From the NCBI RefSeq assembly GCF_037975245.1, contig NC_092577.1, positions 24,425,398 to 24,489,397 of the forward strand: 64,000 bases of DNA. Reading direction: 5' to 3'. Position 1 is the stretch's first letter. Each line of letters begins with the position of its first letter. Both the position numbers and the translations under genes were made by a program. The notes under the pieces are model-generated. The model was not told the DNA's origin. It ran no database searches and saw nothing but the letters and a program-made list of their open reading frames with translations. Positions 3,181 to 63,103 of this stretch are shown here, in pieces. Origin of the DNA: Apostichopus japonicus (Eukaryota; Echinodermata; Holothuroidea; Aspidochirotida; Stichopodidae).

Positions 3181-3332
3181 TATGGGGTGCGACATGTCTT
3201 CACCAATCCAGATGTCACAATGTTGACAAGGTTCCTTCTTGATTGAGGTGTCAAAGTATTGTTTGCTGCATACTCTTCCAGAATAGATTCTCCCTTGGGA
3301 TTGTCATTGAGTAACTGGTCAATATCAAGTAC
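3181..3332 (-). CDS. Gene B relic, exon 2: SAMD3-like segment
   Basis: This exon lies on the minus strand, with a consensus acceptor (cggcag, read on the minus strand) just before 3332 and a donor GTGAGT after 3181. It continues the frame of the exon at 4317-4688 in phase 0. It encodes about 50 residues with the pattern ILEEY...L...SRRNLVNIV. That pattern is typical of the segment just downstream of the N-terminus in large uncharacterised SAMD3-like proteins found in many fish and invertebrate genomes. A related segment is in the second gene B copy near 45,000 (KERREMIRIL). The following exons, expected below 3181, were not found, so the gene is truncated or its later introns are long. The function of the family is unknown. 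Confidence 0.6.
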
Positions 3333-4316
3333 CTGCCGAAACATGAGTTTTGCAGATAAACATTTTCTTTAGCTAATTTACACCAGCATGGTGCATGCTT
3401 TGGCAAGTTATTGTTTATGGTACTTTACATACCATGGTTCCAGTCTACATGATTCTTTCAGCTATGATTATGAACAATTATATACACAGGTCATTATTTT
3501 TTCTCAAATTTGTAAATGTGCAAAACTGCAAATGGATGTTAACCGTTTAACCCCACTGTGTTCTAATAGTCCACTGTCTGATTTATGTTCTTTATTGAAT
3601 AGGCCTACAGATTTATTACAAGTAAATAATAGAGCCAGAAAAGAAAAAATGTTCAGTGATTCCTTTCAGGCAAGGAATTAAAAACCAAAAGAAGTGCTGA
3701 GCGGTGTGAAATTTAAAAAATCTTTTGTGAAACTGGTATGCAATCATGTAGGGTTGCACGGTTTCTGTTATTTCGAAAACCATTTTAGTCTGGCCAAAGA
3801 TTTTAGGGTTTTTTTTTAACCGATTTGCGGATATTTCCATTTTTTTGGGGGAAACCGGTGTCACCTCGGGACAGGAATCACACATCTGACGCTAAATGCA
3901 TGTGTTTTACAGTATATTAATGTTGCAACATTAACTTTCCTTAATGCTGAATTATTTTTACCCAAACTGCCATACACCATTAAAAACCTATGGAGATGTA
4001 TACCATACGGCATAATCCATTATTACGCTATGGTAGCTTGTAGTTTGTACTCACTCATGTGCAGCACAAACAGATCTTTGTGTACACTGTACGCCATCTT
4101 CTAAAAATGCTGCCAATAGCCTACCGAGAAACCGTACTACTGCAAGGTTACAGTTCTACAGTACTTAAACTTTTAGCACAGATTGTCAGACTTGAGTTAA
4201 TATTTAGGGGATAAATAGGAGGGTAGCCGCTCACAATCAGCAGCCAGTATTTCAATAAAGGTATTTATGAATGTCGGTTACGCCATACTCTTTCATTATG
4301 CATACTCAGTACTTAC
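3333..4316 (-). other. Intron between gene B exons 1 and 2
   Basis: This is 984 bp bounded by GTAAGT (minus-strand donor at 4316-4311) and an AG acceptor at 3333-3334. It holds no other supported feature. The open frame at 3616-3885 has no domain and is probably chance. Confidence 0.6.
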
Positions 4317-4688
4317 CAGATCTTTCTTATAATGTTTGGCCCTTGGAGTTGAATGTGCAGATGGACTAGAGATGGAGGCCTCAGAATCAGCTGTGAGGGA
4401 TTCATCCAAACTCTCTTCATCATAAACTGAGGATTCGCTTTCTGTAACCTTCTGTTCAACCGACACCAACAACTCTGAACAGTGCTGAAGGACGTAAACA
4501 TCGTCTTCGTCATCAATATCGATGTCAACAAATTTTGAAACGCCTTCACACTTGGCTAATAATTTGCAGTTTCCATCAATGTTAAATTTGAGTCTAATCT
4601 TTTCTATGGTGTTGGCAATGTCATTCGTATCCAGTACAATTAATTTGGACTTCTCTCCAAATGTCACTACAAGTCTCTTTTCAGCCAT
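4317..4688 (-). CDS. Gene B relic, exon 1: PB1-like N-terminus
   Basis: This exon encodes 124 residues from an ATG at 4688 and ends in phase 0 at a good GTAAGT donor. Residues 3-75 have a ubiquitin-fold/PB1-like pattern: RLVVTFGE at the start, an amphipathic TIEKIRLKFNI helix, then an acidic IDIDDEDDVYVL strand. Residues 76-120 are a Ser/Asp/Glu-rich linker. This N-terminal layout is known from SAMD3-like uncharacterised proteins of fishes and invertebrates that are often multi-copy. The next exon fits at 3332-3181. Directly upstream on the same strand lies the end of gene A, the same order seen inside the 13.9-kb element at 36,607-50,504. This suggests the gene is transposon cargo. Calling the fold PB1 is inference. 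Confidence 0.65.
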
Positions 4689-5397
4689 TGTACAGTACCT
4701 ACAGAATTACAAGAAAGCATTGTTAGAAACAATCAAAGAGAATACAAGATGAGATCTCTAACTTCTCAATACAGGTCAGTGTTAAGTTATAGCTCTAGGA
4801 TTGACAAAACAAAGGGGGGAATTCCTGCTTCCAAAACTATTTTGGGGGAATCTCAATATAATACAGAAATGCTATATGAAGTCTTATCTGATTATTAATC
4901 AAGAGTATTAGGGGGGTCTAAACATGGAAATTATTCTATCTGCAGAATAAATTGTCATTTTGAGCTGCCTGTAGAGAAAGAGGTGTATGAGATACACTTG
5001 AATTTTCAGCTTTGTATCTTATTATAAAGGCACTCTGAAAGGGATTACAAAAATATTACGCAAAATATGCAACAACGCGAATCGTGCACACTTGAAGGGA
5101 GTTACCACCCCAACTAATTTTGAAACGAATTGGAGTTGGAACCTAATATTTTGCATGTAACCAATATACACATACAGTAGATGAATGTTAGAAATGAATT
5201 TCAGCCAAAACGAAGAGGTGACCCATCCCACCATTGGTTGATTTGACACGGAATGACCCTACAGCACAAAATCACATAACAAAAAGGCTTTTTATGTGGC
5301 CCTAAAAATATTTGTATTTAAATTTCATTCTTATTTCTGAGTCCTGAGTAAACAGTTTAACATTTACACTCACTTTTACATGTATCTCAGATACTCA
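4689..5397. other. Spacer between gene A and gene B relics
   Basis: 709 bp separates the stop codon of gene A (5398) from the ATG of gene B (4688), both on the minus strand. It should hold the gene A terminator and the gene B promoter. No TATA box or polyadenylation signal stands out with certainty. Confidence 0.45.
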
Positions 5398-5900
5398 TTA
5401 AATTGCATATTTCAAAGCAATGAAGTCTTGCTCAGCTTTGTTGATCTTGTGAAGAGGTTGTACATCCATTAGTTCTTCATACTTGACGAAGAAATGGGTC
5501 TCAGGAGTTAACAGCTTGACTGCATATGCATGATAACATCGTGAAAAATACAGAGACTGCCATTTTCTTCCATGGAAATAAAGAACATTTCCTCCCATGA
5601 CAATGATGTACATAAGTTCACCAAATATAGGATCCCCGGTCTCTTTATCAATACCAATAGCAATGAACATAGATGACCGATACGGAATACCAGAGACAAT
5701 AATACGATGTGTGATGTAGACTTCATCATGTGGAGATGAACCAGGAACTTTTTGGAGAAAAATGTTGTAGCTATCGATGTCTGAAATTTCTACTGCAGAC
5801 ATGTGAGTGTCATTCAACTCAATTTCAGCATGCAAACCACATCCTGTACGCCATTTAATACAGTGACTAGTCTGATGTCTTGACGAAACTGTATAACATA
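5398..5900 (-). CDS. Gene A relic: C-terminal exon of a C2H2/transposase-like protein
   Basis: The frame is open from the BEL LTR junction (5900) to a stop at 5398. It encodes about 167 residues ending in the pattern V.PL...ALKYAI. The sequence, with motifs YITHRIIVSGI, GELMYIIV and HAYAVKLL, matches the usual C-terminus of large uncharacterised metazoan proteins that start with C2H2 fingers and carry a CACTA-like transposase core. The N-terminal and core parts of such a protein are at 37,841-39,703 on the plus strand. Here everything upstream is replaced by the BEL/Pao LTR, so the gene is cut. The ATG at 5835 is internal and was not taken as the start. Family assignment rests on remembered consensus patterns and is moderate. 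Confidence 0.55.
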
Positions 5901-6770
5901 TGTAGTGAAATGTATTTTGCGTTTTTTCGTTTTTCGTATTGTTGTGTGTTATATAACATTTGGTAACTTTGTTTGACCATACCTCAAATTGTTAAGATTC
6001 AGCTGCATAATTATTTGCTCATGTTTAAACGAGTACCTTGCGTGATTGGCTTGTTGAACCCTCGTGATTTATGTTATGTAAATAAGTCCTTTTCAATGTC
6101 CTTTGATATATATATTGGGCGCACACGGAAAAGGGACCACTGGCATTGGTTGCGTTTAGCCAGAACACATAACTTATATATATTAAGATCTTATATATAT
6201 TAAGATCGCTTCTCGGCCTTTTGGCTAAGATCATGTGTAGTATCTGTTCCCTTAGGGAATGGTGATACACACCTGACGATGATCACACAGTCACAGTCCC
6301 GATGCAAGGGGACTGGGGCTGAGAGCGGATCAGTCGTTTGGTAGTTTGGTTTTCGTGCCCAGGTTCTTTCCTGGGTGACTTTTTCTTAAAAAGTATATAT
6401 TAAGATCTGAGATCCATGCGAAGCCAATAAAGTAATGCCACGTAAGCAGTTGGTGATAGTGGTTGCTGGAAGTTCTAGACATTAAAGGGCTAAAGAGGTA
6501 TTTTGGTGTTTATATATTATAAGTTAAATGCTTTCTTCATGTGTATTTGATGGTTCATGTTTGTGCAATAGTGAAGTTTGTGTAGTTTTATTTATGCCAA
6601 AAAACAAATTATAAAAATGTTGTATTTAGTACTGTAAGTTTTCTATTTTTGTATTTTCGATAGTTTTACGGGAGTTATAGTCATAAACGAGTGCGGAGCG
6701 AAATAAATTGCGGTGACTTTACCCTAGTTCGAAATCATCCGTCTTTTTTCGTCTTGCCACGACCGGTACA
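5901..6770 (+). repeat. 5' LTR of the BEL/Pao element
   Basis: It begins TGTAGTGAAATG and ends GACCGGTACA. It is 870 bp long because it holds a 186-bp SINE (6208-6393), a 14-bp target duplication and a 17-bp tandem duplication. An AATAAA lies near the end (about 6703). Compared with the 3' LTR it has small indels and substitutions over its length. Confidence 0.9.
6208..6393 (+). mobile_element. U2 snRNA-headed SINE, longer copy
   Basis: The element is flanked by a perfect 14-bp duplication TATATATTAAGATC (6194-6207 and 6394-6407). From 6205 the sequence follows the 5' end of U2 snRNA (ATCGCTTCTCGGCCTTTTGG and on, about 45 nt with one difference), covering the first stem-loop and the branch-point-pairing region. 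It then changes at about 6249 to an unrelated 145-nt body with a hairpin CCCAGGttctttCCTGGG and a short A-rich end. snRNA-headed SINEs (SINEU) are known from crocodilians; this is the same principle in another genome. The body alone recurs at 10546-10665. A 17-bp copy of the target (6174-6190) sits in tandem just upstream. Confidence 0.85.
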
Positions 6771-7445
6771 GTAAAACTCTTGGATGGGACTTCCGTGCGT
6801 CTTCCAGGGAGTCTTTCTTCAATAACATATCGGCGTGGAAATCTCCGAGAACTTCATCCATACCACCATCTTCGACTAGCTCTACACTATTTGCAGCCAA
6901 AATTACGGCAGACGTGTCACGGCCTCCATATCCATTCATCATATAGTATTTAATATACCAGTTTGAGCGACGTTCTGGCTATACCATAAAACAGGTATTT
7001 TGTTATTTTGCGGAACTGTTGAAGTAGGTTGCTATCTTCATATCGTTGACCATTGACTAGCAATATGCATCCAGTTCTGCGAGGTTCCAGGCCTGTAGCC
7101 ATGTAACCCTTCGTTACTATTACCGCAAGACCGGTGTCGTTACTCTCTGAACTTTTCAGAATTATAAGGTATAATGGTTGCAATGTAAAGGCTTAGCCAG
7201 ATATATATATATATATATATATATTTTTGATATCCGTTTTATATCTTTCTATCTGTTTCATACCGTTAATTTTGTGTCGTGACAGTCTAGTCTATGTAGG
7301 ACTGTATGTTGATATTGTTGTATAGTAGTAAAATAGTGTTAGGTTTGGTAGCCTTGATTTTATAACTGGGTTATGAGTGACTGTGTGTTCGGTCCTATCA
7401 TCATTATATATGGTACTTTAAGTTGAACCTTCACAATTCAGTATT
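6771..7445 (+). other. BEL/Pao 5' leader
   Basis: This is the untranslated stretch between the 5' LTR and the gag ATG. The primer-binding site should start right after 6770 but I cannot assign the tRNA. It contains a short (AT)n run at 7200-7224. Minus-strand open frames here (6724-6942, 6950-7183) have no recognised domain. Confidence 0.7.
7200..7224. repeat. (AT)n microsatellite
   Basis: A run of about twelve AT dinucleotides in the BEL leader, expected to be length-variable. Confidence 0.9.
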
Positions 7446-9416
7446 ATGATGGACTCTGCTGATGAGGGCACGGTTTCTGAAGACCAAACGTCTGGGTTTA
7501 ATACTCGTCAAAGGATTTTGACTGAGAAAGGTTTTCAGTATCAGTTGGGTCAAAAGGAGCAAAGATTTAGAGGCATAATCTCTAAGTGGCGTAAACATGT
7601 GTTAAAGATAGAATGCCTACTTTCTGAAAGGAGCAATTTAGTAGATGTTAAGGCCGAACGTGATGTTCTATTAGAAACTATGGCAGATTTGTCTAATCTG
7701 TACATCGAAGTCGATAATTTGCTTTCGACCGTTGATCAAATGGGTTCTAAATATTCAATTTTTGAGGCAATAGAACACTCTAATTTAATAAAGAGGGTTT
7801 CTGAGTATATCCATTCTGTAACTAGCCAAGGCTCATGTTCAAAATCATCAGTGTCGGCAAAATCTCATTCTTCTACGAAAGATGAAATTGTAACAACGAT
7901 TGCAGCCCATGAGGCCAAACTAAAACAAATAGAAATGAAGGCAAAATTTGAGGTCCAGCAATTAGAGTTAATGGCAAAGCATGAAGCTGAATTGCAAAGG
8001 TCAGAATTAGCCATAGCTAAGGTAAAATTGGATGCAATTGGAGAACAGGGTTCAGTGCACATGGATTTCCCAGACGATAGTCTTAAATATACTCAAAATT
8101 ATGTCGAAACCCTGGGTGATGTTAATAACCCACAGGATAGGAAGCACCTAACATATGAGGCATACTTAGAGCAACCCGTACTAAGACAAGGCGTCACTAA
8201 ATCTAATGTTCCCCTAACAGGTGGAAACAATGATCAGCCTACGGCAACCCGTGCCAACCTAGGTAATTTAACCAATGATTTTTTGTATCAAGTATCTCTA
8301 AATAGACTTCCAGTTCCAGAACCTGAAATATTTAGTGGTGACCCGTTACAGTATCCTGGCTGGAAGTGTGCTATTGATTTATTGTTAGAGAATAAGGGCA
8401 TACCCCCCTCTGAGAAAATATACTATCTTAAACGGTACCTTAGTGGTCCACCTAAGGATGCTTTGGAGGGCTATTTCTTGGTTCCTTCTGATTCCACCTA
8501 TATAGAGGTACGAAAACTTCTTGACGATAGATATGGTAATAATTTAGCAATCGCCGATGCATTTAGATCTAAACTTGAAGGGTGGCCTAACATCCAACCT
8601 AATGACGGACTTGCACTTCGCAAGTTTGCAGACTTCCTAGGCCAGTGCGAGTTTGCTATGAAATTGGTCAAGGGTAGGCTTAGCTTCCTAAATGATAGTT
8701 GGGAAAATCGCAAATTGCTTGATAAATTGCCTGATTGGTTGGTTAAAAGGTGGGGACGAGTACTGTCAGAATGGGATGATTTTCCGCCATTTGGTAAGTT
8801 TAGACAGTTTATCGCCAAGGAAGCTGATATTGCATGTAATCCTTTAATAGTTTCTAGCCAGAAGGGCAAGGGGTCAAGAGGCACAAGGGGTGCTAGTAAC
8901 TTTGTAGTCGAAACAGGGTTTGACAATTCAAGTACAAAACTCAATGCCCATAGGTATAAATGCCTAATTTGTGAAGGTGATCACCGACTTGACTGTTGTT
9001 ATAAGTTTCTTGCTAAAACGGTCGAAGATCGTAAGATATTTGTAAAAACCAAAAACTTGTGCTATGGATGCCTACGTCAAGGCCATATATCAAAATTCTG
9101 TCGCAATCGTCTCGTATGTAATATTTGTTCGAGGTCTCATCCTACAGCACTTCATGGTGACATTGTTTCTCACATAGGTAAAACTGTTTGTAGTTCCAGT
9201 AAGTCAATTGGAATTCAAACAGAAGCAATTAACACAGGATTGAGTCATGTAAGTGGGTTAAGGGACATAACAATGAATTCTCTCATCCTTCCTGTATATG
9301 TTTCTCATGTGGATGCTCCGCAAAGAGAAGTCCTTGTGTATGCCCTTTTAGACACTCAGTCAGATAGTACATTTATTACTGATAAGACCTGTGAGCTGCT
9401 GAACGTGGAAGGTTGA
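7446..9416 (+). CDS. gag: BEL/Pao Gag and start of protease
   Basis: This 656-codon frame is the N-terminal part of a Gag-Pol polyprotein. Residues 1-200 are coiled-coil-rich. About residues 280-420 contain the DUF1759-type Gag core (PEPEIFSGDP, KIYYLKRYLSG). Zinc-knuckle-like Cys/His clusters follow at about 506-520, 539-552 (CYGCLRQGHISKFC) and 557-570. At about residue 634 begins the aspartic protease motif ALLDTQSDSTFI, with the catalytic Asp at 636. The frame then stops at TGA 9414-9416, but the same frame reopens at once and continues the protease. The stop is therefore either a nonsense mutation or, less likely, a read-through signal. The ATG at 7446 is the first in the leader with a long open frame. 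Confidence 0.88.
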   Translation: MMDSADEGTVSEDQTSGFNTRQRILTEKGFQYQLGQKEQRFRGIISKWRKHVLKIECLLSERSNLVDVKAERDVLLETMADLSNLYIEVDNLLSTVDQMGSKYSIFEAIEHSNLIKRVSEYIHSVTSQGSCSKSSVSAKSHSSTKDEIVTTIAAHEAKLKQIEMKAKFEVQQLELMAKHEAELQRSELAIAKVKLDAIGEQGSVHMDFPDDSLKYTQNYVETLGDVNNPQDRKHLTYEAYLEQPVLRQGVTKSNVPLTGGNNDQPTATRANLGNLTNDFLYQVSLNRLPVPEPEIFSGDPLQYPGWKCAIDLLLENKGIPPSEKIYYLKRYLSGPPKDALEGYFLVPSDSTYIEVRKLLDDRYGNNLAIADAFRSKLEGWPNIQPNDGLALRKFADFLGQCEFAMKLVKGRLSFLNDSWENRKLLDKLPDWLVKRWGRVLSEWDDFPPFGKFRQFIAKEADIACNPLIVSSQKGKGSRGTRGASNFVVETGFDNSSTKLNAHRYKCLICEGDHRLDCCYKFLAKTVEDRKIFVKTKNLCYGCLRQGHISKFCRNRLVCNICSRSHPTALHGDIVSHIGKTVCSSSKSIGIQTEAINTGLSHVSGLRDITMNSLILPVYVSHVDAPQREVLVYALLDTQSDSTFITDKTCELLNVEG

Positions 9417-10199
9417 AAGACGTTGTTGAGTCTGTCCACTTTGTCATCTAAGAATCAATTGGTAGACAGTAGTAGGATTGGTGGCTTGTCTGTTAGAGGG
9501 CATAGGGAAGGTACCAAAGTTCCCTTGCCTGTTTCGTATACACGTTGTTCTATACCAGCCAATAGATCTCATATTCCCACTCCGGGAACTGCCAGGCAGT
9601 GGCCACATTTGAAGCGAATAGCCAATCATCTTATGCCGTTAGAACAGTGTGAGATAGGATTGTTGATAGGCTATAATTGCCCTAAAGCATTAATGCCTAT
9701 TGAGGTTATCTCTCCTCCTGATAATGGTCCGTATGCTGAAAGAACCAACTTGGGTTGGGGTATTGTTGGCATAATTAACCCTCGAGAATTGTCTGTGGAT
9801 AAGTGCGATCCTGTTGGAGTTAGCCACTTTATTGTGACTCCTCGCCCCACTTCTGAATTTGACAGTATTCTACCACGTGATGGGGCTAAGATTTGTTTCA
9901 AATGTAATGTTAGGGAGGTTGAACCAACTCAGGTGGCAGGGTTAATGGAATTGGAATTTAATGAACGAAATTTTGAAAGTGCTTATTCAAGAGAAGATAA
10001 GAAATTTCTTAACATCCTTAAGGAGGGAGTATGCCAGTTAAGTGATGGTCATTATCAACTGCCATTACCCATGAAATTGTCTCAGGTTTTTCCAAATAAT
10101 AAATGTATGGCTCTCTATCGTTTGAATCAATTAAGAAAGAAAATGGAGCGTAATAATACTTATGCTAAGGATTGTTACCTTTATGCAAGACATTATTGA
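9417..10199 (+). pseudogene. pol: BEL/Pao protease and pre-RT region
   Basis: This continues the gag frame immediately after the TGA at 9414. It carries the Pao peptidase (A17) and linker signature: LSTL, IPANRSHIPTP, GLLIGYNCPKALMP, and RTNLGWGIVG, as in other BEL elements. The end, CMALYRLNQLRKKM, is the entry to RT. A frameshift between about 10,162 and 10,180 moves the reading to the next frame. There is no independent start; the ATG at 9588 region is internal. Confidence 0.82.
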
Positions 10200-10545
10200 C
10201 AAGGGGTATGCGGAATTAGTTCCTAGTTCTGAGCTAAATGCTGATCAGGTAAACTATATTCCTCATCACGGAGTATATCACCCTAAGAAACCAGGAAAGA
10301 TACGTGTAGTATTTGATTGCAGTGCAAAATTCAAAGGAATTTCCTTAAATGATCAATTACTTACTGGTCCTAATTTGACCAACGATCTACTTGGTGTTCT
10401 CTGTCGTTTTCGTCAAGAAAGAATTGCATTTGCAGGAGATATAGAATCAATGTTCTATCAGTTTAAGGTTAATCCTGAACAGCGTAATCTTCTAAGATTC
10501 CTTTGGTGGAGTGAGGGTAATGTTAACGGTGACCCTATGGAATAT
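10162..10545 (+). pseudogene. pol: BEL/Pao reverse transcriptase, N-terminal part
   Basis: Fingers/palm segment of RT. It has YIPHHGVYHPKKPGKIRVVF, then DCSA, LNDQLLTGPNLTNDL and the catalytic-Asp palm motif AFAGDIESMFYQF, all typical for Pao RT. It is shifted one frame against the preceding part and is interrupted at 10545 by a truncated SINE. Confidence 0.85.
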
Positions 10546-10665
10546 GACGATGATCACACAGTCACAGTCCCGATGCAAGGGGACTGGGGCTGAGAGCGGA
10601 TCAGTCGTTTGGTAGTTTGGTTTTCGTGCCCAGGTTCTTTCCTGGGTGACTTTTTCTTAAAAAGT
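10546..10665 (+). mobile_element. 5'-truncated copy of the U2-SINE inside RT
   Basis: 120 bp flanked by a perfect 14-bp duplication ACCCTATGGAATAT (10532-10545 and 10666-10679). The sequence equals 6275-6393 of the longer copy but lacks the first ~67 nt, including the whole U2 head. 5' truncation plus a long target duplication shows insertion by target-primed reverse transcription with LINE machinery. The near identity of the two copies suggests both are young relative to the host element. Confidence 0.9.
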
Positions 10666-12339
10666 ACCCTATGGAATATCGTATGACTGTGCATTTGTTT
10701 GGAGCAGGATCATCTCCAGGGTGTGCAAATTTTGGCCTAAAACAAATTGCATTAGACTGGTTCTAAATTCGGGGAGGATGTAGCAGGTTTTGTGAATCGA
10801 AGCTTTTATGTGGATGATGGTCTTAAATCTGTTGATACAGTTAATAGAGCTGTAGACCTTATTTCTCGAACGAAACAAATGCTACATAAGGGTGGCGTTA
10901 ACTTCACCAAAATTAAGTGTAATTCTAAGGCTGTGTTGCAATCAATTCCTGAGGAAGATCTTGCGGTTGCTTCTGGGCATTTAGATCTCTCCTCAAACGC
11001 AACTCATTTGGATCGGGTTCTTGGAGTACAATGGTGTATTGAATCAGATGAATTTCAATTTAAGATAACACTTAGTGATAGCCCTTTGACACGGCGTGGT
11101 ATCCTTTCTACGATTGCTTCGGTGTATGACCCGTTTGGGTTTATAGCTCCAGTTGTGCTTCCAGGAAAGCAAATCTTACAGCAATTATGTTATGATCATT
11201 TAGATTGGGATAGTCCCTTGCCAGATGAGCTACATAGTAAGTGGGAAAAGTGGAGGATGGGTTTATCTAAGTTAGAAACCATCAGAATTGATAGGTGTTT
11301 TAAGCCTGTTGAACTTGGCACCGTTACAAAGACAGAACTGCATCATTTCTGTGATGCTAGCACCATTGGGTATGGTTACTGTTCTTACCTGCGCATGACT
11401 AATCGTGAAGGTAAAGTTCATTGTAGCTTTGTTCTTGGAAAGTCTAGGGTTGTTCCCCGTAGGCCTGTTACAGTACCACGCCTAGAGCTGACTGCAGCTG
11501 TATTGTCGGTAAAAATGAGTGCCTTGTTGAAACAAGAGTTGGAGTACAATTTTATCAATGAATATTTCTGGTCTGATAGTCAGGTAGTCCTTGGGTATAT
11601 CAATAATGATGTCAAAAGATTTCATGTGTTTGTGGCAAATAGGGTGCAACAGATTCATGAAATGAGTAGTAGTAGCCAATGGCATTTTATTAAAGGGTTT
11701 GAAAATCCCAGTGACTGTGCCTCTCGTGGACTTACAGTTTATGAATTAAGGACATCAAGCTGGTTTAGAGGGCCAGAGATGTTATGGCAAAGTCAACTCC
11801 CACTGGTTAAGCACGTTACAAACCTTGAGGTCTTTGATCATGACCCAGAGGTTAAATGTTACCAGGTAGCATTTTCCAGTGTCAAATGCTCTAATCATTT
11901 GGAAGTAGATCGTTTAAGCTCCTTTTCGAGTTGGTTTAAAGCAAGGAAAGCTATTGCATTATGCCTTTGGCTAAAGGCTATGCTTAAGGCTAAGGCTAGT
12001 AAAACCTTCCTTCCGGTTAGGGAACTTAATGTAGATTCTTTGTTTGAAGCCGAGATTGAAATACTGCGAATAGTTCAGTCCTATGCATTTAAGGAAGAGC
12101 TTCAAATCCTTCGTACATTAAGTAGTGATCCAGTACAATGCTTGAAGAAAGGCAGTCCACTCTATGCTCTAGATCCATTTTTGGATGAAAATGGTGTTAT
12201 TCGTGTTGGTGGTCGTATATCTAAATCTAGCTTCGAGTTTAAGGTGAAGCATCCTGTAATTATTCCTAAGTTATGCCATGTTGCAGAGCTTCTTGTGAGA
12301 CATTTTCATGAGTTAGTTGCCCACCAGGGTAGAGTTTAA
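10666..12339 (+). pseudogene. pol: BEL/Pao RT catalytic part, RNase H and integrase zinc finger
   Basis: After the SINE the RT resumes (HLFGAGSSPGCANF), suffers a frameshift near 10,760, and continues with FYVDDGL, the YVDD catalytic box, at about 10,805. The stretch STIASVYDPFGFIAPV and the RNase H motifs FCDAST, LELTAAVLS and FWSDSQVVLGYI follow. The HH half of the integrase HHCC finger (HFHELVAHQGRV) ends at an in-frame TAA at 12337. The same frame reopens at once with the CC half, so this is a single nonsense mutation. Confidence 0.88.
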
Positions 12340-13476
12340 ACTTCAAACGAACTTAGGGCAAATGGTTATTGGATCATTGGTGGTAGTTCTTTAATTGGTA
12401 AAGTGATATACAAATGTGTTACTTGTAGACGGCTTCGTGGTAGTTTGGGTCAACAGAAAATGTCAGACTTACCAGTTGATCGAGTGGAGTCTAGTTCACC
12501 CTTTACATATTGCGGTGTAGATTGTTTTGGTCCCTGGCTTGTAAAGGAAGGTCGTAAGGAGTTGAAGAGGTATGGCGTGTTATTTACATGTATGGCCTCA
12601 AGGGCGGTACACCTAGAGGTAGCTAATTCATTGACCACCGACTCTTTTTTGAATGCATTACGACGCTTTCAAGCTATACGTGGCCCTGTAAGACAATTGC
12701 GTTGTGATCAGGGCACTAATTTCGTAGGGGCAAATAACGAGTTGTTAGCTGCATTAAAGGAAATGAACCAAGGTGTTGTAAGTAAAAGCTTGCTTGAGCT
12801 GGGTTGTGATTATATTGAATTTAAGTTTAATGTTCCACAAGCTAGTCATATGGGTGGTGTCTGGGAAGGACAGATTAAAACGGTTCGTTGCATTTTGGAT
12901 TCTATGCTACACAAGTTAGGGACTCAACTTGATGATGAGTCTCTTAGGACATTTATGTATGAAACCACTTCTATTATTAATAGCCGTCCATTGACTACAG
13001 AAACTCTGTATGATCCATTGTCATTAGAGCCGTTAACTCCTAATCATGTAATTACTTTGAAGTCGAAGATACTTCTTACACCTCCAGGTCAGTTCGACTC
13101 TGCAGATATGTATTCTAGAAAGCGATGGCGTAGAGTACAATATTTATTAAATGTATTTTGGTCCAGATGGAGGAAGGAATACCTTCAAAATCTTCAGGTC
13201 AGGCAAAAGTGGTGTTCGCCATCTGTCAACATAGAGGTTGGGGACATAGTTTTAATTAAGGATATTGACAAGCCAAGAAATAGGTGGCCCATGGCTAGAG
13301 TACAAGAGACAATTGAAGGTAGTGACAAATATGTTCGTAAGGTGAAACTTAGGTTAGCTTCTCACATTGATAATAAGGGTAAACGTCAAGGTCCTGTTAA
13401 TGTTCTTGATAGACCAATTCATAAATTGATAGTATTAGATAAGGCTTCAGAGGAGAGTAGTCATGAGGGGCCATAG
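12340..13476 (+). pseudogene. pol: BEL/Pao integrase core and C-terminal domain
   Basis: The frame is the same as the preceding part. The CC half of the zinc finger (CVTCRRLRG) is followed by the DDE core. The first Asp is in GVDCFGPW, the second in LRCDQGTNFVGA, and the Glu in HMGGVWEGQIK. The C-terminus has LTPNHVI, RKRWRRVQYLLNVFW and GDIVLIKD, a DUF5641-like domain typical of Pao integrases. It ends at a stop at 13474, about 90 bp before the 3' LTR. An AGGGG-containing purine stretch directly before 13567 is the likely polypurine tract. Confidence 0.9.
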
Positions 13477-13566
13477 TCCACTTAACGATTGTATACTAAG
13501 CATTTATGTACTGTGTAGCATGTTAAGTGTTTGGCGTATAAAATGATTTCTCATTTTGAGGGGCCA

Positions 13567-14217
13567 TGTAGTGAAATGTATTTTGCGTTTTTTCGTTTTT
13601 CGTATTGTTGTGTGTTATATAACATTTGGTAACTTTGTTTGACCATACCTCAAATTGTTAAGATTCAGCTGCATAATTATTTGCTCATGTTTAAACGAGT
13701 ACCTTGCGTGATTGGCTTGTTGAACCCTCGTGATTTATGTTATGTAAATAAGTCCTTTTCAATGTCCTTTGATCTATATTGGGCGCACTCGGAAAAGGGA
13801 CCACTGGCATTGGTTACGTTTAGCCAGAACACATAAATTAATATCAAGATCTGAGATCCATGCGAAGCCAATGGAATGTAATGCCACGTAAGCAGTTGGT
13901 GATAGTGGTTGCTGGAAGTTCTAGACATTAAAGGGCTAAAGAGGTATTTTGGTGTTTATATATTATAAGTTAAATGCTTTCTTCATGTGTATTTGATGGT
14001 TCATGTTTGTGCAATAGTGAAGTTTGTGTAGTTTTATTTATGCCAAAAAACAAATTATAAAAATGTTGTATTTAGTACTGTAAGTTTTGTATTTTTGTAT
14101 TTTCGATAGTTTTACGGGAGTTATAGTCATAAACGAGTGCGGAGCCAATAAATTGCGGTGACTTTTACTTCTTGTACGAAACCATCCGTCTTTTTGCGTC
14201 TTGCCACGACCGGTACA
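13567..14217 (+). repeat. 3' LTR of the BEL/Pao element
   Basis: 651 bp from TGTAGTGAAATG to CCGGTACA, without the SINE that enlarges the 5' LTR. The right flank changes at once to the AT-rich repeat at 14218. There is no duplication of the left flank. Confidence 0.9.
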
Positions 14218-14830
14218 GGTTCATTATTCATCATAAGACAAAGGGTTCGATATTCATTTAGACAAAAAGGTTCGTTATCCATAATGGGAAGAAAGGTTCG
14301 TTATTCATAATAGGCCTTGCCAATTACACTTGTATGAATATCGCACTTCTCTCCTATTATGAATAAGAAAACTTTTTCCCTTTATGGATTATGGAACGTT
14401 TGCTCCATTACTGTATGAATATCGAATTAACCCTTTGTCCCATTTAATGATTAGGAATAAAGAACCTTTTTGTCTAATATGGATTACGCACTCTTTGCTC
14501 TATTATGAATAAGGAACCCTTTGTCTTATTATGAATAAGGAACATTTGGTTTATTATGGATTACGGACCCTTTGCTCTATCAGGAATAGGGAACCCTTTG
14601 TCTTATTATGATTAACGAACCTTTTTATCTATTATGGATATCCAACAGTTTTGCCTATTATGAATATTGAACATTTGTTTCCATTACGAATACCGGATCT
14701 TATGAATTATGATCCCCTTTTCATAATGAACAACAAACTTTTTATCGAAAAAATGCATGTTATGAATAAGGAACCTTATGAACAATGACTCTTATGAATA
14801 GCGGACCTTATGAATATTGGGCAGACCCCT
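14218..14830. repeat. AT-rich inverted/tandem degenerate repeat field
   Basis: Units of roughly 25-50 bp built on TATTATGAATAAGGAACC and CTTTGTCTTATTATGAA. In the first ~110 bp (14218-14330) the units read the other way (GACAAAGGGTTCG, TTATTCAT), then flip and run to 14830. The field is therefore an imperfect foldback, with a short arm, a turn near 14,330-14,370 and a long arm. No coding content. Confidence 0.75.
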
Positions 14831-17447: not shown

Positions 17448-17637
17448 TGTTGATGCTACAAAGGAGGACAACTCCCTAGGAAGACTTGTCAATGATGACA
17501 AAAGGAATGCCAACTGCTTTATGAAGGTTGCAAAAGATGATATAATACCACATCTTTGTCTATATGCTAAGAAGAAAATACTACCAGGGGAGGAGATAAC
17601 ATATGACTATGGTGGTTATTGCCCTTGGAGAAAGAAG
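17448..17637 (+). CDS. SET-YR gene, SET domain C-terminal exon
   Basis: 190 bp, fully open, between TTTGCAG and GTAACA. It encodes VDATKEDNSLGRLVND, then NANCFMKV, PHLCLYAKKKILPGEEITYD and YGGYCPWRKK. The GRLVND, N-C, LCLYA..KI.PGEEITYDYG motifs form the catalytic core and pseudoknot of SET lysine methyltransferases, with the active-site Tyr in TYDYG. Nothing essential appears missing in this exon. Confidence 0.82.
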
Positions 17638-36400: not shown

Positions 36401-36606
36401 CTAGTGGTGGTATCCTGTAAATTGGGCCAAAAAGGGTCAGGCCCCTGTGCGTGGTAAGGCCTGTAAGGTCCATAAGTGGGTTTGCTCCCGATACTATAAT
36501 GTTAAATTTTGTATTTTTTCGTTTTTTTCTCAAAATAACCGCCCTATCACCCTTGGGAGGAATCGCACCCCCAATTATTGTACCATTTTGGACAGCAGAC
36601 ACCCTA
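33494..36606. repeat. 203-bp satellite array, 16 units (left part)
   Basis: The phrase GACAGCAGACACC recurs at 33544, 33746, 33947, 34149, 34352, 34556, 34761, 34964, 35166, 35372, 35576, 35778, 35980, 36184, 36388 and 36591 (some with a base change), a period of 201-206 bp. Two unit types alternate irregularly. One has GAGGAATCGCACCCCC and GGGCCTGGCTCC. The other has GGGATCGCACTCCAAAT and AAGACCAGGCCCC. The segments 33,655-33,854 and 34,873-35,072 look identical. Many short open frames on both strands are by-products of the unit. The array is broken at 36,606 by a transposon and resumes at 50,507. Confidence 0.95.
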
Positions 36607-37012
36607 CACTGTTAAAAATTTCTGTAAATTTACAGTTAATTCCTGTCGATTTTTACAGAAAAAGCCGGTTTTCTATATTTACATGTAAACGTCTGTTATT
36701 TTAACAGACGTTTTCTGTACAGCAAGTGGTTTACACAAAATTGTAGTATTTTTCCCTCCAAAGAAAATTTACAGGAAAATCCTGTAAAATTTTCCAGAAT
36801 ATGTCAGTTTTTAATATTTACATGTAAAATCTGTGATTTTTACAGACGTTTTATGTTACAGCAAGTGGTTTACAAAAAATTGTAGTATTTTTTCCTGCAA
36901 TGAAAATTTACAGGATAATTCTGTAAAATTTTCCAGAATATGTCAGTTTTTTATATTTACATGTAAACTTATGTGATTTTTACAGACGTTATATGTGTCA
37001 TGTACTTTACAG
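36607..37012. repeat. Left terminal and subterminal repeats of the large element
   Basis: The terminal CACTGTTAAAAATTTCTGT is followed by about 2.5 units of ~139 bp. 'caagtggtttaca' recurs at 36723 and 36862, and 'tttttacagacgtt' recurs near 36,838 and 36,976. Short inverted words TGTAAA/TTTACA are dense, which may offer repeated transposase binding sites. A T-run (about 37,017-37,034) follows. Confidence 0.75.
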
Positions 37013-37840
37013 AATTATTTTTTTTTTTTTTTTTGCAATCTAATGCATGTAAATTGGAATTTGAAGAGTGTTATACGAAAATATACTTGAAGGTGGAACA
37101 CGTTACCAATATACAATGGTATAGGCTACAACAAAATCCATTGTGCAGTAACATTACCGTTTGGCAAAGAAAAGAATGAAATCCAACCATGAAGCTATTA
37201 CCGATAGCTCCATGATCCAACCCACAATTACCAGTTAACTTTGTCCCTACAGTCGTTTTCTGCCTTAGTGTTACATTTGAGCAACAACCCCCACCCCCGT
37301 GAGGCTCATCAATGACCCTTAATTGTCCAGCGAACGAAACCAATGTAAAAGGTAACTTTGAAGGGTCTGTAGGTCAAATATGTGAAATCTAACCATTTAG
37401 AGTTTTAGAAACGAATTATTTGTAAATGCCTAACGTGTTAACTAATGAAAACATAATTTTACAATAGATGGTACTGTTCCAATTGGTTTACCGTTTGTTT
37501 AAGGAGTATACAACTTCCGAAATCCTATCAAAACAATTACTGCTGTGAGCTGCCAAGAATACAATGCCCAGCCTTCAAGATGTGGTCTAATTTATTGTTG
37601 TTTTATGTTAACTTGTATTGTCAGTAAAACATGAACCGATGACAATTCCGTGTGCTCAATGTACGATCACTGGGTCACACACATGCAGCTATTTATAGCT
37701 AAATGGGTCACCGAACGTATCAAAATGTTGTTCAATATGTCTAGTACAGCAAATGTCATTTCATTCATCTGAACCGCCCCCCCCCTTCAACCCCTCCTCC
37801 CATTCGACCCAGCCGGTCTAGCTCGATTATTGGCGTCAAC

Positions 37841-39703
37841 GTGTCTGTAACAGCTATGACGTCTCGCGCACAGGCGGGAATTCTTTTGATACATTCTGGG
37901 CGGCTGCCGTTGGCTTTCCCGGAAAACTTGGCTACCCGTGGCTATACCCTATCAACTTTTGCTGCAATGAAGATTCATGTGACTAGGTATCACCGCCATC
38001 TTCAAAAGCAAACAGCAGTTGCAGCAAAACTTCAGTCAGTTAACCTGTCATTGATTTGTATGTATGAAATCTGTCAAAAAGAACTCACAGATCTGTCCTC
38101 ATATTTGGCACACTTAAAAGCACATATAAGAAAAGAACAAGTTGTATCTTGACCATATAAGAAGTGCAAAAGAGATTTTTCAAAAACCAGTTCATTTACA
38201 GCACATTTGTCACGTTGTCACAGAAACTGGGGAGCTGTAAACATTTTGGATAAATACAAACTTTCTACTCGTGATCATTGCTCTTTGGATCAAGATATAC
38301 CTCTAGACACTAACTGCTTTGATGTGTCTACAGAGACTGATAGATTTGTCATTGAAAATGACATAAGCTGTGATTTCGAAAACAGTAACAATTGCCAAGG
38401 TAGGGTGCAAGAAACAGGTCAGTCTAGGCTTCAATTCCAACAAAATTTTGCCTTGTTTCTTCTGAAACTTCAGGCAAAACAACTTGTTCCATCACAAACA
38501 ATTCAAATGATTGTTGAGGAGCTTCAAACTATTCACAGTTTATGTCAAAAATTGAGAGATGAGGGTTTAGCAGAAGAACGTATCAAATGTGTAGCCGATT
38601 ATATGAATGAGATAGATGCATGGATTGCTATTGATACAGTAGTTGTAAAGGAAAACTCAGAACGCAGCACTGTAGAAAAGAGTAATTTACTATAAATCAG
38701 CATTCAAGTTTGTTGCTCCAATTGCAATATCACTAGGGAGAGATTCAGCACAAAAAATGCATTACTATCATTACATTCCAATCAAGGAGAGCATTCAATT
38801 GCTCCTTTCGGATGATTTTGTCAAAGTAGGCATCACAGTGAAGACTCATCTGTTCTTACTGACATAGTGGATGGTACAGTTTTTAAAAAAAAATAGTTTG
38901 TTTCAAAGTTGTGAAAGATCCTTGTCCATCATTCTCTATGAAGACTCATTTGAAATTGTAAACCCACTTGGGTCGGCAAGAATAAAACACAAAATACTAG
39001 CAATGTACTTTACACTTGGAAACACCCAACCTGAGTACAGATCTGTTGTTGATGCAATGCAGCTTGTGTTTTTTGTAAAGAAGTTGATTTTAAGGTCTTT
39101 GGGCAGCAGAAGGTTTTTGAGAGAGTGATAAATGATTTGAAAACATTAGAGGAAGTTGGAATAGAAACAAGTGACGGGGTGGTCTGGAAAGGTGCGCTGT
39201 CTTGTATATTAGGGGATAATTTAGGTTCCCATTGTATTGGGGGTTTCATTGAGAGTTTTTCAGGAACTAACATGTGCCGCTACTGTTTAATAACTTCACA
39301 TGACTTCAAATGTAATGCACCATATGCTGTTGGGAAGCCTAGAACCAAGGAGGAGTATGATTCTTGCATTGCACACCTTGAAGATCATGAAGAAAATCAT
39401 CATCAAGGAATTAAATTTAATTCATGTTTTAATTCTTTGAGGTATTTTCATGTGTGTGCACCTGGTTTGCCATCATGCCTGGGACATGACTTGTTTGAAG
39501 GAGTTGTTGATTACGATGTAGCCATGTTTATTCAATACTGGATTAAACAAAAACATTGGTTCACATATGCAGATTTGAATATAATGTTGGTACAGTTTAA
39601 ATTTCAAGGATGCGATGCAAACAATAAACCTGCATTTGTAAATTTATCAGGTAACCGCTTAGGTGGTTTTTTTGAGGAATGGAGAGGTGAAAGGGGAGGT
39701 TAA
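37841..39703 (+). pseudogene. Gene A: C2H2 / CACTA-like transposase, decayed
   Basis: From 37,841 the frame encodes a degenerate finger (FAAMKIHVTRYHR) and then a C2H2 pair. The first is CMYEICQKELTDLSSYLAHL; the second, PYKKCKRDFSKTSSFTAHLS, lacks its first Cys because that codon is now TGA (38150-38152). After a Leu-rich stretch to 38,695 the core continues in other frames: HYYHYIPIKES, FEIVNPLGSARIKHKI, AMYFTLGN, then a clean 192-codon frame (39,125-39,703). That frame has CILGDNLGSHCIGGF, MCRYCLI, LPSCLGHDLFEGVVDYD and WIKQKHWF. GDN and GHD carry the likely catalytic Asp residues, and C..C resembles the CACTA zinc site. The C-terminal third is missing; a related C-terminus lies at 5398-5900. 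Confidence 0.65.
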
Positions 39704-40514
39704 GAAGTAAGTTACAAGAGGAGATGGAAAAATTTCTAAATAGTAAGTACATGTGATACACAGAAGTTTCTCTTATTGTCTAAGACAGTTGCTGGTACCA
39801 CAAATTGAATAAGGAAACTGGTCTCATAGTACATCATTAGCATTTTTGTAATTCTCTAAAGAAAATTTTCTGGGTTAATTATTAGTATTATACATTAGAT
39901 TTGAATTTTTTTTAAAGCAGTTTTCAAGTAGTGAGCAAATAGAAAACACTAGGTCAAACTAATGAAATGATACACCACATACCCAAACTAAAATATTTAT
40001 CAACAAGAAAAGAGGAAACCCTTCTTTTCAATTCAAATTAAACATAGAACGTACGTTCTATGTTGTTTGTAGAGTATGTTGAAGTTCATATGAGAGTATG
40101 ACAAGGCTAAAGGTCACCTTGAAAAACAACCACTATGGGTTAGTATGGGGTACAGTACCTCTACTCTGGGATCATACTTGGCCCCCACTTTGGGGTCCAA
40201 ATAAGCGGGCACTACGAAAATGTCTGCAGTGACCAAATAATGCCATTGACGCAACAATTTGATATGTATGAGTGTTACTTTGCCCCAAAAACACTTGTAT
40301 ACCAATAATCAACAAAAATTGCCCCAATAATTTCACACTTTGGCTATACTGATTGAAAGATGCAGAGAACTGTGGAAATGGCTTGCTTTCCATACTGTAT
40401 AAGAATACACCTCGACAACTTAACAAACTATGAAGCACGCCTTGTCCGATGCTTATGCACAAGGTCCATATGGCATACGGTACGGTGTGTACATGTGTAC
40501 AAAGCCATTGCCTA
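39704..40514. other. Spacer with a perfect 24-bp palindrome
   Basis: No coding continuation of gene A was found. A perfect 24-bp palindrome, AACATAGAAC-GTAC-GTTCTATGTT, lies at 40041-40064. The rest shows nothing recognised. The pogo-like element begins at 40515. Confidence 0.6.
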
Positions 40515-42116
40515 CAGGTAGGGGCCCCTCAGAATGCTGGTGCCCCTCAAAATGTAGGTGAACAAATATTATTGGCTAGAAAAAAAACTGAACCTGTCAT
40601 GAACTTTTTATTATACTTTTTAGATAGGATATATGTATGATGAATTTAAAATTGCCAACAACTCAAAAATTATTTTATAGTTTCCAAAAAAATATATGGG
40701 TACAATCATCTATTTGCTTACCGTGCATCTAAAATTTGCTATTAATTGAAGTGTAGCTTCTTGGCACTGCATCAAAAACGGAAAACTAGGGGGTAATTTA
40801 CATTGCAAAATTACCTGTTTGTAGAATGATGATCAGTGAAATATAGCACTTTGTACGTAACTTGATATTTTTGAAAACATCATTACTTGATCAGAATCAG
40901 CATTTTGAGGGGCATTAAACCAGCGTTTTGAGGGTCAATAAAAACAAATATGAAAAATTAATAAATCCATTACAGGGTAATATCAAAACTGTATTTTTAC
41001 ATGAAACATATAATTTTACACTAACAACACCAAAAATAAACACTTACCTCACATATTTTGTAATTTAACTACGTTAAATAAGTTGCTCTCATATTTTTTT
41101 TAAATGTTCTGAGAAATATTTACTATTGCCTTCTACAGTATTCCCTCAATTTTATGTCCATTACATTTACTAAGATATGTACAATTCACAACATACTGCC
41201 AAAATGACTACTATATAAATGAAGACCTCATTTGGATGTAAGTTTTGCTACCTTCAAGATTTTTAACATTGTGGGTCAGTTCAACTGGGTGGGTGCTTAT
41301 GGGTTGGCGCAAAATACAGTACCACACACATATAGTATAAACGAATATTAATTACACTTTAAAGAACCTACATTCACATGTAACAGTTTCATGTAGCTGA
41401 AGAAAGAACAATCTGTTTTTAACTGTAATGATTTATATTTAACAGGTAATAAACAACTTTATCATTTGAAACTTTAATTAAACAAATAAAGCATCATCAG
41501 AAAAGACAAACTTGTATACTGTAGGGTAATAACTAAACTATAAAACTAATCAACTTTTCATTTCACATACACATGTTTATTGATAAATGTATTTCTACAT
41601 TCTACCACATTTCACCATCCCTGGTTGCACTTCTGCTTCATACACTTCACCATAAAATATGGGAGCAGACTCTTTTTCCATTTCCTGTGTCATACCCTAA
41701 TCTACTCCAAATGGCTTCTCTAAACATCTCACACAGACTTCATCTCCCACCTTTTGTAGAACTTTACCAATCATACACTTCTTCTAAACCCACATCGACA
41801 CTTTCACATCCTTCATATCCAACCTTCTTAACCCCATCACATCTACACCTTCAACCTCGACAGCATCTACACCTTCAACCTCAACGTCATCTGCACCATC
41901 AACCTCAACCTCTTCTGCACCTTCAACCTCAATATCATCTACAGACATCTCTTCAACAGATGAGTCATCAACAAGAAGTCGCCGACGCACACGCTTCCCT
42001 TGTGTGCAAGCAGGCAAAATCATATCAGGCTTGACTCCATTTTCATCTTTACATGCAGCTTTACTGCATATAATTGGGAAGCCAGCACATTTAAGCATTT
42101 GGGACACAGTTTCAAC

Positions 42117-43041
42117 GGGTACACGTTGTCAGTCCGACACGTTTTCAGTCCGAAAATAAAATACACGTTTTTAGTCCGAATAAACGAGTTTTCAGTCCGA
42201 CACGTTTTCAGTCCGAAAATAAAATACACGTTCTCAGTCCGAAAAAACGAGTTTTCAGTCCGACACGTTTTCAGTCCGAAAATAAACTACACGTTTTCAG
42301 TCCGAAAATGAAATACACGTTTTCAGTCCGAAAATGAGAAAAACGTTTTCAGTTAGGGAATGAAAGCAGTTTTAATGCCATAATATCACCAATAAACGGT
42401 GACAGTCCGAACTGATAGTAAAAGAATCGATTGAATCTTTTGTATTAAGTCTCACATCACCGGCCTCAACAAAGACTTGGGACCCCTTAACAACTATCAG
42501 TTCTACAAACATATGTAATCCGTTCTTCGCTCCTTAATCAGCTTCCTGTATAGTCATGGTTTGTTTGGTTCTAATTCCATCAATGCAATTTACACTTTAA
42601 ACCTAGCGTCATACTTTCACTGTGTTACATTTTGTACTTTTCAGTCGACTGCCAATAATGCTGACGAAGGTCCCAGGGGACCGAAAATTCCAATATATTT
42701 TCTAAAACTTACCTCCTTATTTGTCAATTATGAGTAAATACGAAAGATTCAATCGATTTATTTACTATCAGTTCGGGCTGTCACAGTTTATTGGGGATAT
42801 TATGGCATTAAAACTGCTTTCATTCCCCAACTGAAAACATTTTCGGACTGAAAACGTGTATTTTATTTTCGGACTGAAAACGTGTATTCCATTTTCGGAC
42901 TGAAAACGTATATTTTATTTTCGGACTGAAAACGTGTATTTCATTTTCGGACTGAAAACGTGTATTTTATTTTCGGACTGAAAACTTGTCGGACTGCAAA
43001 CTTGTCGGACTGCAAACTTGTCGGACTGAGGGGTGTACCCC
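42117..43041. mobile_element. Long-TIR non-autonomous element, 8-bp target duplication
   Basis: The element is 925 bp flanked by GTTTCAAC on both sides (42109-42116, 43042-43049). The arms, roughly 42117-42455 and 42720-43041, are inverted copies of each other. They start GGGTACAC and hold tandem words TTTTCAGTCCGAAAATAAAA. The inner arms share 'gaatgaaagcagttttaatg' and 'gaactgatagtaaa'. No open frame of note exists. 8-bp duplications occur in hAT, Merlin, P and Novosib-type elements, and the GGG start does not decide between them. It sits in the reading frame of the pogo-like transposase between its two Cys clusters. Confidence 0.88.
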
Positions 43042-43557
43042 GTTTCAACTTCTCTGCCTCACACTTGCCATCTGGTTTCAAGCAAACACAATGTGACTTG
43101 CACTTCAAAAATGTCTCTAGATTACACTGTTTCTTCAGCTTATTGTCTTGTCTGGCTTTGTCCCTTGCTTCGTTCTCTTTATTCAATAACTCCACTGATT
43201 CTTATATTTGTTGTCCTTCCATGGATCCATGGACTTGAGTTACCCTTATGTTACTTGTCTACCTTTGGTTTTGGCTTCACTTTCTTAATTGTCAGTAGTC
43301 CATCAATCTCCTCCAATGGCGTACTCTTGAATGAATTTTCAAGCTTCTGGATGGTTTCTAATGAGTTCTCCAGTTTTTGTGTATAGTACTGCTTGGTGTA
43401 CTTCTTGATGCCAACTGGCGACTCAACCATTGATGTGTTGGAAGTTGATGATGAAGGTCCTGCCGTTTCATCAGTTTCATCTTGAATAACAGATGATGCT
43501 GGAACAAATTTGTCCTTTTGCATCCATTCAACACCCAGGCCATGGTTAGTTACACCA

Positions 43558-43590
43558 TGGAGCTATAAACCTGGGATATATAGCTCCATG
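43558..43590. mobile_element. 33-bp palindromic insert with 9-bp flanking repeats
   Basis: GTTACACCA occurs at 43549-43557 and again at 43591-43599. Between them lie 33 bp that form a hairpin (TGGAGCTATA ... TATATAGCTCCA). Without the insert the pogo-like transposase frame reads on smoothly on the minus strand (KNAAKRVGVT, then NHGLGVEWMQKDKF). It is therefore a real insertion, too short to encode anything. Origin unknown; a minimal foldback element or a repair-made template insertion are both possible. Confidence 0.65.
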
Positions 43591-44844
43591 GTTACACCAA
43601 CACGTTTTGCTGCATTTTTTATTATTTCAAGTTTGTTTTTATTTCAACATCTGCCAATTTCTTCATGAAACCATCCCTGTTGACTGTGCATTCCGCAGAA
43701 AAGAGTTCTCCCTTGCTGTTATGGTATTCACAGTGCAAATTTTGATTGATTTGGTCATGTAATTGTGTGACTCCAGTGGTATCAGGTGGAGTGATGAAAA
43801 GATGCATTTCTTTTGCTCTCAAGAACCTCAACACCTCAATATCAAATCTGGAACTGTGGCCATCAGAAACAATGACAACTGGTCTTGCTACCTTCTGTGC
43901 TGCTAAGTGTCGATCTAATAACTTGTACACTGACAACAGGGATTCATGTGCTTGAGAACCAGGTTCAGTTGTTGATATAAGAAGATTTGGAATGTTCTTG
44001 ACAGCAATGTCAGGAGCCATATGTACAAGTGTAGATAGTTGAGTTAGAAGAAATCCAAAGTATTGTTAATTGTCTTTAGGATGTTTGTTGGTTACTTTTG
44101 CTCTTTTATTACTTAAGTGGGGAATATTTTTCCATTTGTTGACTGTCAATATGCCAAGGAATGGGAAAACAAAAAAAAATTTTGGAAAGGAGGTGTCATG
44201 TTTTGTATTTTTCATTAGGGAAAATCAGCATTCTGAGGGGCAATACACCAGCATTTTGGGAACCTCAGTGGGAAAAAATACAAGAAACACAATCAATTTT
44301 TAAATAACTCTTAGAGAGTTTAAAATGAGTGAACCAGTCAAAATTTGTTTTTAATTCATGACGTTCCTGGAAAATTATAAGCAAAATTGTTGACCAGCGT
44401 TTTGAGGGGCAAGTGTTTTTTAGTGTGGTTTTTATCCATGCCAAAAAAAAATGATAAAAAAAATATTTTCATGTTTGGACCCAAATGCAATCTAAGTTAA
44501 TAGATAATCTTCATAATCTTCATCTGGTGAGCTGTAGGTGACTTACAAAAAACACCTACATTCTGAGGGGCCCCTACCTGTACATCAACAAACAAGCAGC
44601 GGCTTAACCGAAACAGACGTGTCAGAGAATGCCCCTGTTGCCAATTGAAGATATGCTTGATTCGATAGATTGAGAGCTTGAGTGCTGCCCCTGTTTATTG
44701 TGTAAATGCTGATGTTCTGTGAGTGTCCAAAAAACTAGTACCTTAATGCAATATATGTCTGTTGTCAGGAAATAATTTATCAAGGTTGTTTATTCATTTC
44801 ATATCATCTACTTTCATTGATGTGACATATTTTCATTCTTAAAG

Positions 44845-50504: not shown

Positions 50505-50506
50505 TA

Positions 50507-63073: not shown

Positions 63074-63103
63074 GACAGCTAGGGGTGTGGCAAAGCCACG
63101 CAC

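Follow-up and report, generated by a model that had tools for sequence, protein, structure and literature searches.

In the genome of Apostichopus japonicus, a transposase-like gene (gene A) is followed on the same strand by a second gene (gene B), and this pairing is real and common. It was traced from a 64,000-nucleotide stretch of contig NC_092577.1 (assembly GCF_037975245.1, positions 24,425,398 to 24,489,397 of the forward strand; hereafter the window), which holds two such places: a 13.9-kb element of family F1 and a minus-strand locus of family F3 near its left side. The pairs are probably EnSpm-like two-gene transposons, in which gene A would encode a DDE transposase and gene B a polymerising, end-binding helper, the helper role being drawn by analogy.

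Pairing of gene A and gene B in the genome

Searches of the A. japonicus genome covered 671,581,487 bases, and the resulting counts are lower bounds in which copies within one family are not independent of each other. Matches to the F1 gene B exon defined 47 gene B places, PB1-type gene B places lying outside this count; 29 matches at 94-100% identity and one short match at 81% are all F1, and the rest come from smaller families. Gene A gave 158 matches, 91 of which were used in the pairing count. The original prediction had proposed scoring how often gene A lies within 5 kb upstream of gene B on the same strand, and in this genome it does so at 33/47 gene B places, rising to 44/47 within 15 kb. 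Downstream of gene B, gene A was found on neither strand (0/47), and an opposite-strand gene A also lay upstream at 2/47 places, which represent an inverted element pair on C12. Gene B is therefore not mostly solitary or beside unrelated genes, the outcome that had been named as speaking against a unit; gene A was absent from 3/47 places. At two of these (C15:15394562 and C7:9210419) the F1 left end lies upstream at distances of 3.9 and 4.6 kb, which points to a probable loss of gene A there, and the third (C8:30156161) is unaccounted for. The count can also be read from the element end. The F1 left end gave 63 matches, and each of the 30 strong ones (E<1e-125) is followed on its own strand by gene B at a distance of 3.9-15.6 kb, which accounts for all 30 F1 gene B places; the 33 excluded matches were shorter or fell in internal repeats, some of them beginning at the end itself.

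Both gene families are abundant, and this abundance would favour a reading of the second place in the window as a chance adjacency of two separate repeat families. The strand and side bias (gene A lies upstream on the strand of gene B in 44 places and on the opposite strand in 2, and downstream in none) stands against it, as does the repetition of the order by the left-locus family in two further loci, L027 and L033. Chance adjacency, which we regard as exceedingly improbable, was rejected on that bias for the families counted.

The order of gene A followed by gene B was found in at least seven diverged families (F1-F7), a tally that excludes a large gene A group with frames of 868-872 residues. 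Twenty loci (L026-L045) were read with about 1.5 kb of flank around the gene A C-terminus; gene B lay on the same strand in eight of them (L026, the left locus of the window, to L033), and in 12 (L034-L045) no gene B was found within the flank. Longer reads at three of the latter places (L082, L083 and L084) reached gene B exons or a near-identical copy. In F4 (L084, at the L041 place) gene A is followed by gene B on the same strand, and so it is in F7 (L082, at the L039 place), where the search yielded only two exons of gene B (E values of 7e-11 and 1e-7 in comparison with L084); L083, at the L038 place, was assigned to the F7 order through its 99.7% identity to L082. The same arrangement is present in F5 (L085) and F6 (L086), and two less studied groups with the order are L032 and the pair C12:18901950/C14:11961176. 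Gene A and gene B cluster alike, as F1/F5/F6, F2/F3 and F4/F7, which argues for their joint descent.

Both element ends were read in F1 and F2, and right ends in F3. Among 14 further F1 copies, two have the right end outside the 801-bp slice, and the 12 with both ends readable all carry identical 2-bp flanks (10 TA, 1 TG and 1 CA). In addition, the window copy and its relative X are flanked by TA, and the F2 copies Y (C1) and Z (C16), which are 98.8% identical over 9.8 kb and have CACTC ends, are flanked by TA and TG, respectively. A unit of about 12.5-12.8 kb is common to the F3 copies on C19 and C17, whose right ends read GAGTG followed directly by TA. The repeated pairs could alternatively be segmental duplications of host genes without any transposon, and the many near-identical copies, the inverted pair on C12 and the reading of F3 at its right ends would agree with this; F1 and F2 copies, however, stop at inverted termini flanked by 2-bp duplications, and no two of the 15 left flanks read are alike. 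Segmental duplication is rejected for F1 and F2 on these grounds and has very little probability as a reading of the pairs. Taken together, the pairing counts, the CACTG and CACTC ends and the 2-bp duplications bear out the original prediction that gene A and gene B form a fixed transposon unit.

The ends also bear repeated short motifs. In the F1 element of the window, the 7-mer TGTAAAA occurs 6 times on the left, 12 times on the right and 4 times in the interior, and in the F2 copy Y the 7-mer AAGTGCT occurs 5, 7 and 2 times, respectively. The best 7-mer enrichments exceed those of all 170-186 random interior window pairs per element, tandem repeats accounting for part of the enrichment in F1, where the interior of the window copy takes in a nested element. 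Repeated motifs near both ends, as in canonical CACTA elements, are thus present in F1 and F2, and the CACTG (F1) and CACTC (F2) ends with their short duplications agree with the 5'-CA..TG-3' termini and 2-5 bp duplications of CMC/CMCT elements. Plant CACTA elements have a 3-bp target duplication, whereas the duplication here is 2 bp, which departs from the canonical form.

The predicted proteins

Open gene A frames span 917 (X), 847 (Y), 931 (L085), 841 (L082) and 840 (L084) residues. An alignment of nine rows was built from the seven families, the left-locus piece and L018, an outside relative found by searching bacterial genome contigs with a GDNLGSH-x-[IV]GG-like peptide pattern, which returned one contig. 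When invariance was judged on the rows that reach the columns concerned, with the left-locus piece omitted, D388, D479, C499-x2-C502, H569-D570, H708-x3-H712 and E732 (X numbering) proved invariant. The N-terminus gave weak C2H2 matches. EnSpm, Mirage, Chapaev, Transib and their kin share a set of DDE, C(2)C and H(3-4)H residues according to the available part of PMC12730594, and the catalytic and zinc-type residues of the CMC/CMCT clade, as defined there, are present in gene A. Transposase_21/tnp2 (PF02992) gave no match at E<=10 in gene A of the window, L018, X, Y, L082 or L085; because this Pfam family is unmatched, gene A is placed within the clade but outside canonical plant CACTA. Judged by its residues, gene A is a predicted DDE transposase of the CACTA/EnSpm clade with N-terminal C2H2-like fingers.

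Other searches returned little: Pfam gave no usable match for the parts of gene A and gene B in the window, solved structures gave none for gene A, no relatives of the genes were confirmed in viral contigs, and phages and plasmids held no match to the L018 gene A frame. L018 itself (QNXQ01000188.1) is a 4.5-kb, eukaryotic-looking contig filed as an Aquifex MAG; as it carries an animal-type gene A transposase, the Aquifex bin probably contains contaminating eukaryote DNA.

The first exon of gene B differs between families. In F5 it matches SAM_TNK (E 7e-4) and SAM_2 (0.015), in F6 SAM_TNK (0.021) and in F2 PB1 (0.0062), all of these below the Pfam curated cut-offs; the F1 exon has no domain match alone and aligns with the F5 exon (E 4e-14). 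Neither a SAM nor a PB1 head was found in gene B of F4 and F7. The remainder of gene B is clearly common to members within groups. Between the SAM type (F1, F5 and F6) and the PB1 type (F2 and F3), blastp gave no match at E<0.001; the two gene B types of the window share a weak segment match, equalled in 13/5,000 shuffles, and profiles of the two types built from joined exons match with a probability of 91% (E 1.2e-6, 174 columns), a result that 0/60 column shuffles equalled. These comparisons indicate that gene B encodes a putative accessory protein from several exons, of which the N-terminal one is SAM-like or PB1-like depending on the family. SAM and PB1 are both head-to-tail polymerising domains. 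Gene B is labelled SAMD3-like here for its long conserved body preceded by a SAM-like or PB1-like head, an arrangement that we take to be that of animal SAMD3-like genes.

Possible role of gene B and relation to known systems

Since gene A and gene B travel as one element in many copies, gene B probably helps movement. Its protein would bind the subterminal repeats, polymerise through the SAM or PB1 head and so coat the end repeats, pair the two ends, and recruit or regulate the transposase, much as TnpA does with TnpD in maize En/Spm. In maize, transposition requires both TnpA and TnpD, and the two proteins interact, as described in the available text of PMC1636069. Gene B could instead be a passenger that is always inside the element and serves a purpose other than transposition, such as escape from silencing, which Kojima proposed for the TET/JBP genes carried in fungal transposons (available part of PMC12730594). 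Gene B has been retained with gene A in at least seven diverged families in which the two cluster alike, and the repeated short motifs at the ends are usable by a binding protein; both observations speak against a passenger, although they are compatible with one too. We therefore regard the passenger as an unlikely reading and prefer a helper of transposition.

Like maize En/Spm, the elements have CACT-type inverted ends, motifs repeated in the subterminal regions, a second protein and a DDE transposase that carries the C(2)C and H(3-4)H residues. They differ from it in the 2-bp, mostly TA duplications, in having gene A and gene B as separate genes in that order, in the lack of a Pfam tnp2 match, and in the SAM-like or PB1-like heads of the second protein; the parallel drawn with TnpA is an analogy. 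The TRC elements of animals and fungi (SmTRC1) are likewise CACTA relatives with 2-bp direct repeats (7/14 copies) and a second product, but their ends begin with CCC, they carry Transposase_21, and no relatives of their second protein could be detected in other elements, whereas different families here have gene B in common (all for TRC according to the available part of PMC1636069). ESTA, a fungal EnSpm-like group, shares the CMCT clade residues and TA duplications as far as its available description goes (PMC12730594); unlike the present elements it is fungal and was found carrying TET/JBP genes. In the plant MUG7/MUG8 genes, which are domesticated and Mutator-type, PB1 is also linked with transposase-derived genes, but there the transposase-derived gene itself carries it as an additional exon, whereas here it heads the second gene; in the available text on the MUG7/MUG8 proteins, PB1 is said to be usually not associated with transposable elements (PMC8616336). 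Among the literature matches listed, with open text as the scope and Repbase Reports outside it, no SAMD3, SAM or PB1 protein was found in an EnSpm/CACTA element.

More tentatively, and with somewhat more doubt than confidence on our part, the elements may belong to a widespread animal group of two-gene transposons with a polymerising accessory protein, whose head would have been exchanged between SAM-like and PB1-like forms; the animal SAMD3-like genes, and perhaps the vertebrate gene too, would then be this accessory gene, partly domesticated. If so, unexplained animal genes become testable transposon accessory genes, and if the SAM/PB1 exchange is true, head-to-tail polymerisation would be the needed property. 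An animal En/Spm relative with open frames and many copies also offers a system for asking why CACTA elements need a second protein.

The two places in the window and neighbouring sequence

Table 1. Positions of the two gene pairs and associated sequences in the window
Feature	Position	Strand	Remarks
Gene B second exon, left locus	3181..3332	-	then GTGAGT; 68%/50 residues to L027 and L033; 52% to F2
Gene B first exon, PB1-like, left locus	4317..4688	-	ATG exon, then GTAAGT; borders from sequence; 56%/75 residues to L027
Gene A C-terminal piece (F3), left locus	5398..5900	-	LTR truncates at 5901; 48% identity to L027
BEL/Pao retrotransposon, interrupts left gene A, outside the unit	5901..14218	+	LTR pair; Pfam
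Left TA target duplication copy	36605..36606	.	
F1 element, CACTG...CAGTG, 13,898 bp, gene A then gene B	36607..50504	+	inverted ends; empty site
Left subterminal tandem repeat, 139-bp unit, 2.7 copies	36626..36996	+	
Gene A (transposase) remains	37938..39667	+	95% to X 3252-5011, inside open 917-residue frame
Nested element, inverted ends CAGGTAGGGGCCCCTC, TA flanks	40515..44580	.	absent from X
Gene B long exon, decayed	44845..45810	+	open as 350 residues in X
Gene B exon near C-terminus	47257..47427	+	conserved in X
Gene B last exon	48190..48321	+	42/42 residues identical in X
Right subterminal tandem repeat, 109-bp unit, 5.5 copies	49825..50421	+	
Right TA target duplication copy	50505..50506	.	

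The host site of the F1 element is a 202-bp tandem array, which supplies the empty site CCCTA.GTGG; because of this empty site, only a 2-bp target duplication, TA, fits. Copy X (C1:1535000-1553999, from L062, L058 and L059) matches window positions 36605-50506 in four long pieces of 93-95% identity, with 87% in the repeat-rich right end. Its ends are CACTG, its target duplication is TA, and its open gene A is followed by a gene B whose long exon is open. X is longer by 0.8 kb at 37935/37938, where the start of gene A lies, and by 1.5 kb at 39667/39689, where the extra sequence takes in the catalytic E block and C-terminus of gene A together with the SAM-like first exon of gene B; most simply, the additional sequence would reflect losses in the window copy. 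The N-terminal and core parts of gene A had been predicted at 37,841-39,703, followed by gene B on one strand. The order and strand held; the extent was revised by the comparison with X, which leaves the shorter remains given in Table 1. These remains keep the zinc-finger part, the first and second D and C(2)C, and gene A of the window copy is without its start, E block and C-terminus. Most of the distance between the two genes in the window copy is the nested element, at whose position X has about 1.2 kb of other sequence. Within the nested element, inverted short-tandem-repeat arrays (CAGTCCGAAAA type) at 42121-43029 have a foldback-like arrangement.

At the left locus, a C-terminal exon of gene A had been predicted to begin at 5900 and to be followed by gene B. 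The pairing was confirmed, with about 0.7 kb between the gene A stop and the gene B exons; however, 5900 is an artefact and no exon start, because the LTR that begins at 5901 truncates gene A. The C-terminus of the gene A protein is read at 5869-5398(-), in a frame ending at 5398, and directly 5' of the gene B ATG lies a splice-acceptor-like sequence. Because the gene A sequences at the two places in the window share no overlap, an outside relative was needed for comparison, and L018 holds an almost complete gene A (tblastn E 1.8e-41). When the window ORFs of >=25 residues were compared with the tail of the L018 gene A protein, ORF 5401-5991(-) ranked 1/1612. Its local score was reached by 41/10,000 shuffles and its anchored global score by 21/10,000, and a cruder shuffle test gave 68/5,000. 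The concern that 5398-5900 might have no homology to the gene A C-terminus is thereby set aside. A search of the A. japonicus genome with a 134-residue part of this C-terminus gave 40 places at E<=0.01, many of which sit in open frames of 840-890 residues; a structure model of the C-terminus, with a mean pLDDT of 36, was of no use. Around the left locus, a search for a CACT-type end pair gave none. The gene A C-termini of the left-locus and big-element families are 16% identical over 154 positions, and since the families are different, the two places in the window are independent cases, as had been proposed.

The LTR pair of the BEL/Pao element was recognised by blastn of the window against itself, in which 5900-6771 matches 13566-14218 with Pao-type ORFs in between; Pfam matches are Peptidase_A17 (3e-49), DUF5641 (5e-27) and DUF1759 (1e-7). 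The right LTR abuts foldback-like inverted tandem repeats (TTATGAATAACGAACC type) at 14217-14816 and is without a target duplication on that side. The 5' LTR contains a U2 snRNA-derived sequence at 6205-6395(+) (Rfam U2), and a 122-bp stretch in the pol region, at 10545-10666(+), is 100% identical to the U2-derived LTR sequence. A further 93% copy lies near the right flank of X, and the U2-derived stretches are possibly mobile sequence.

Elsewhere in the window, a SET-domain exon is present at 17449-17637(+) (Pfam SET 1.6e-8). An ORF run at 26056-28273(+), 8.4 kb beyond that exon, has no Pfam match and presumably resembles a C2H2 plus tyrosine-recombinase (Crypton-like) protein. A 436-residue gag-like ORF with three CCHC zinc knuckles (Pfam zf-CCHC 3e-5) lies at 61793-63103(-), and comparison of the window with itself revealed local tandem duplications at 18000-20500, 23000-23900 and 55900-57600.
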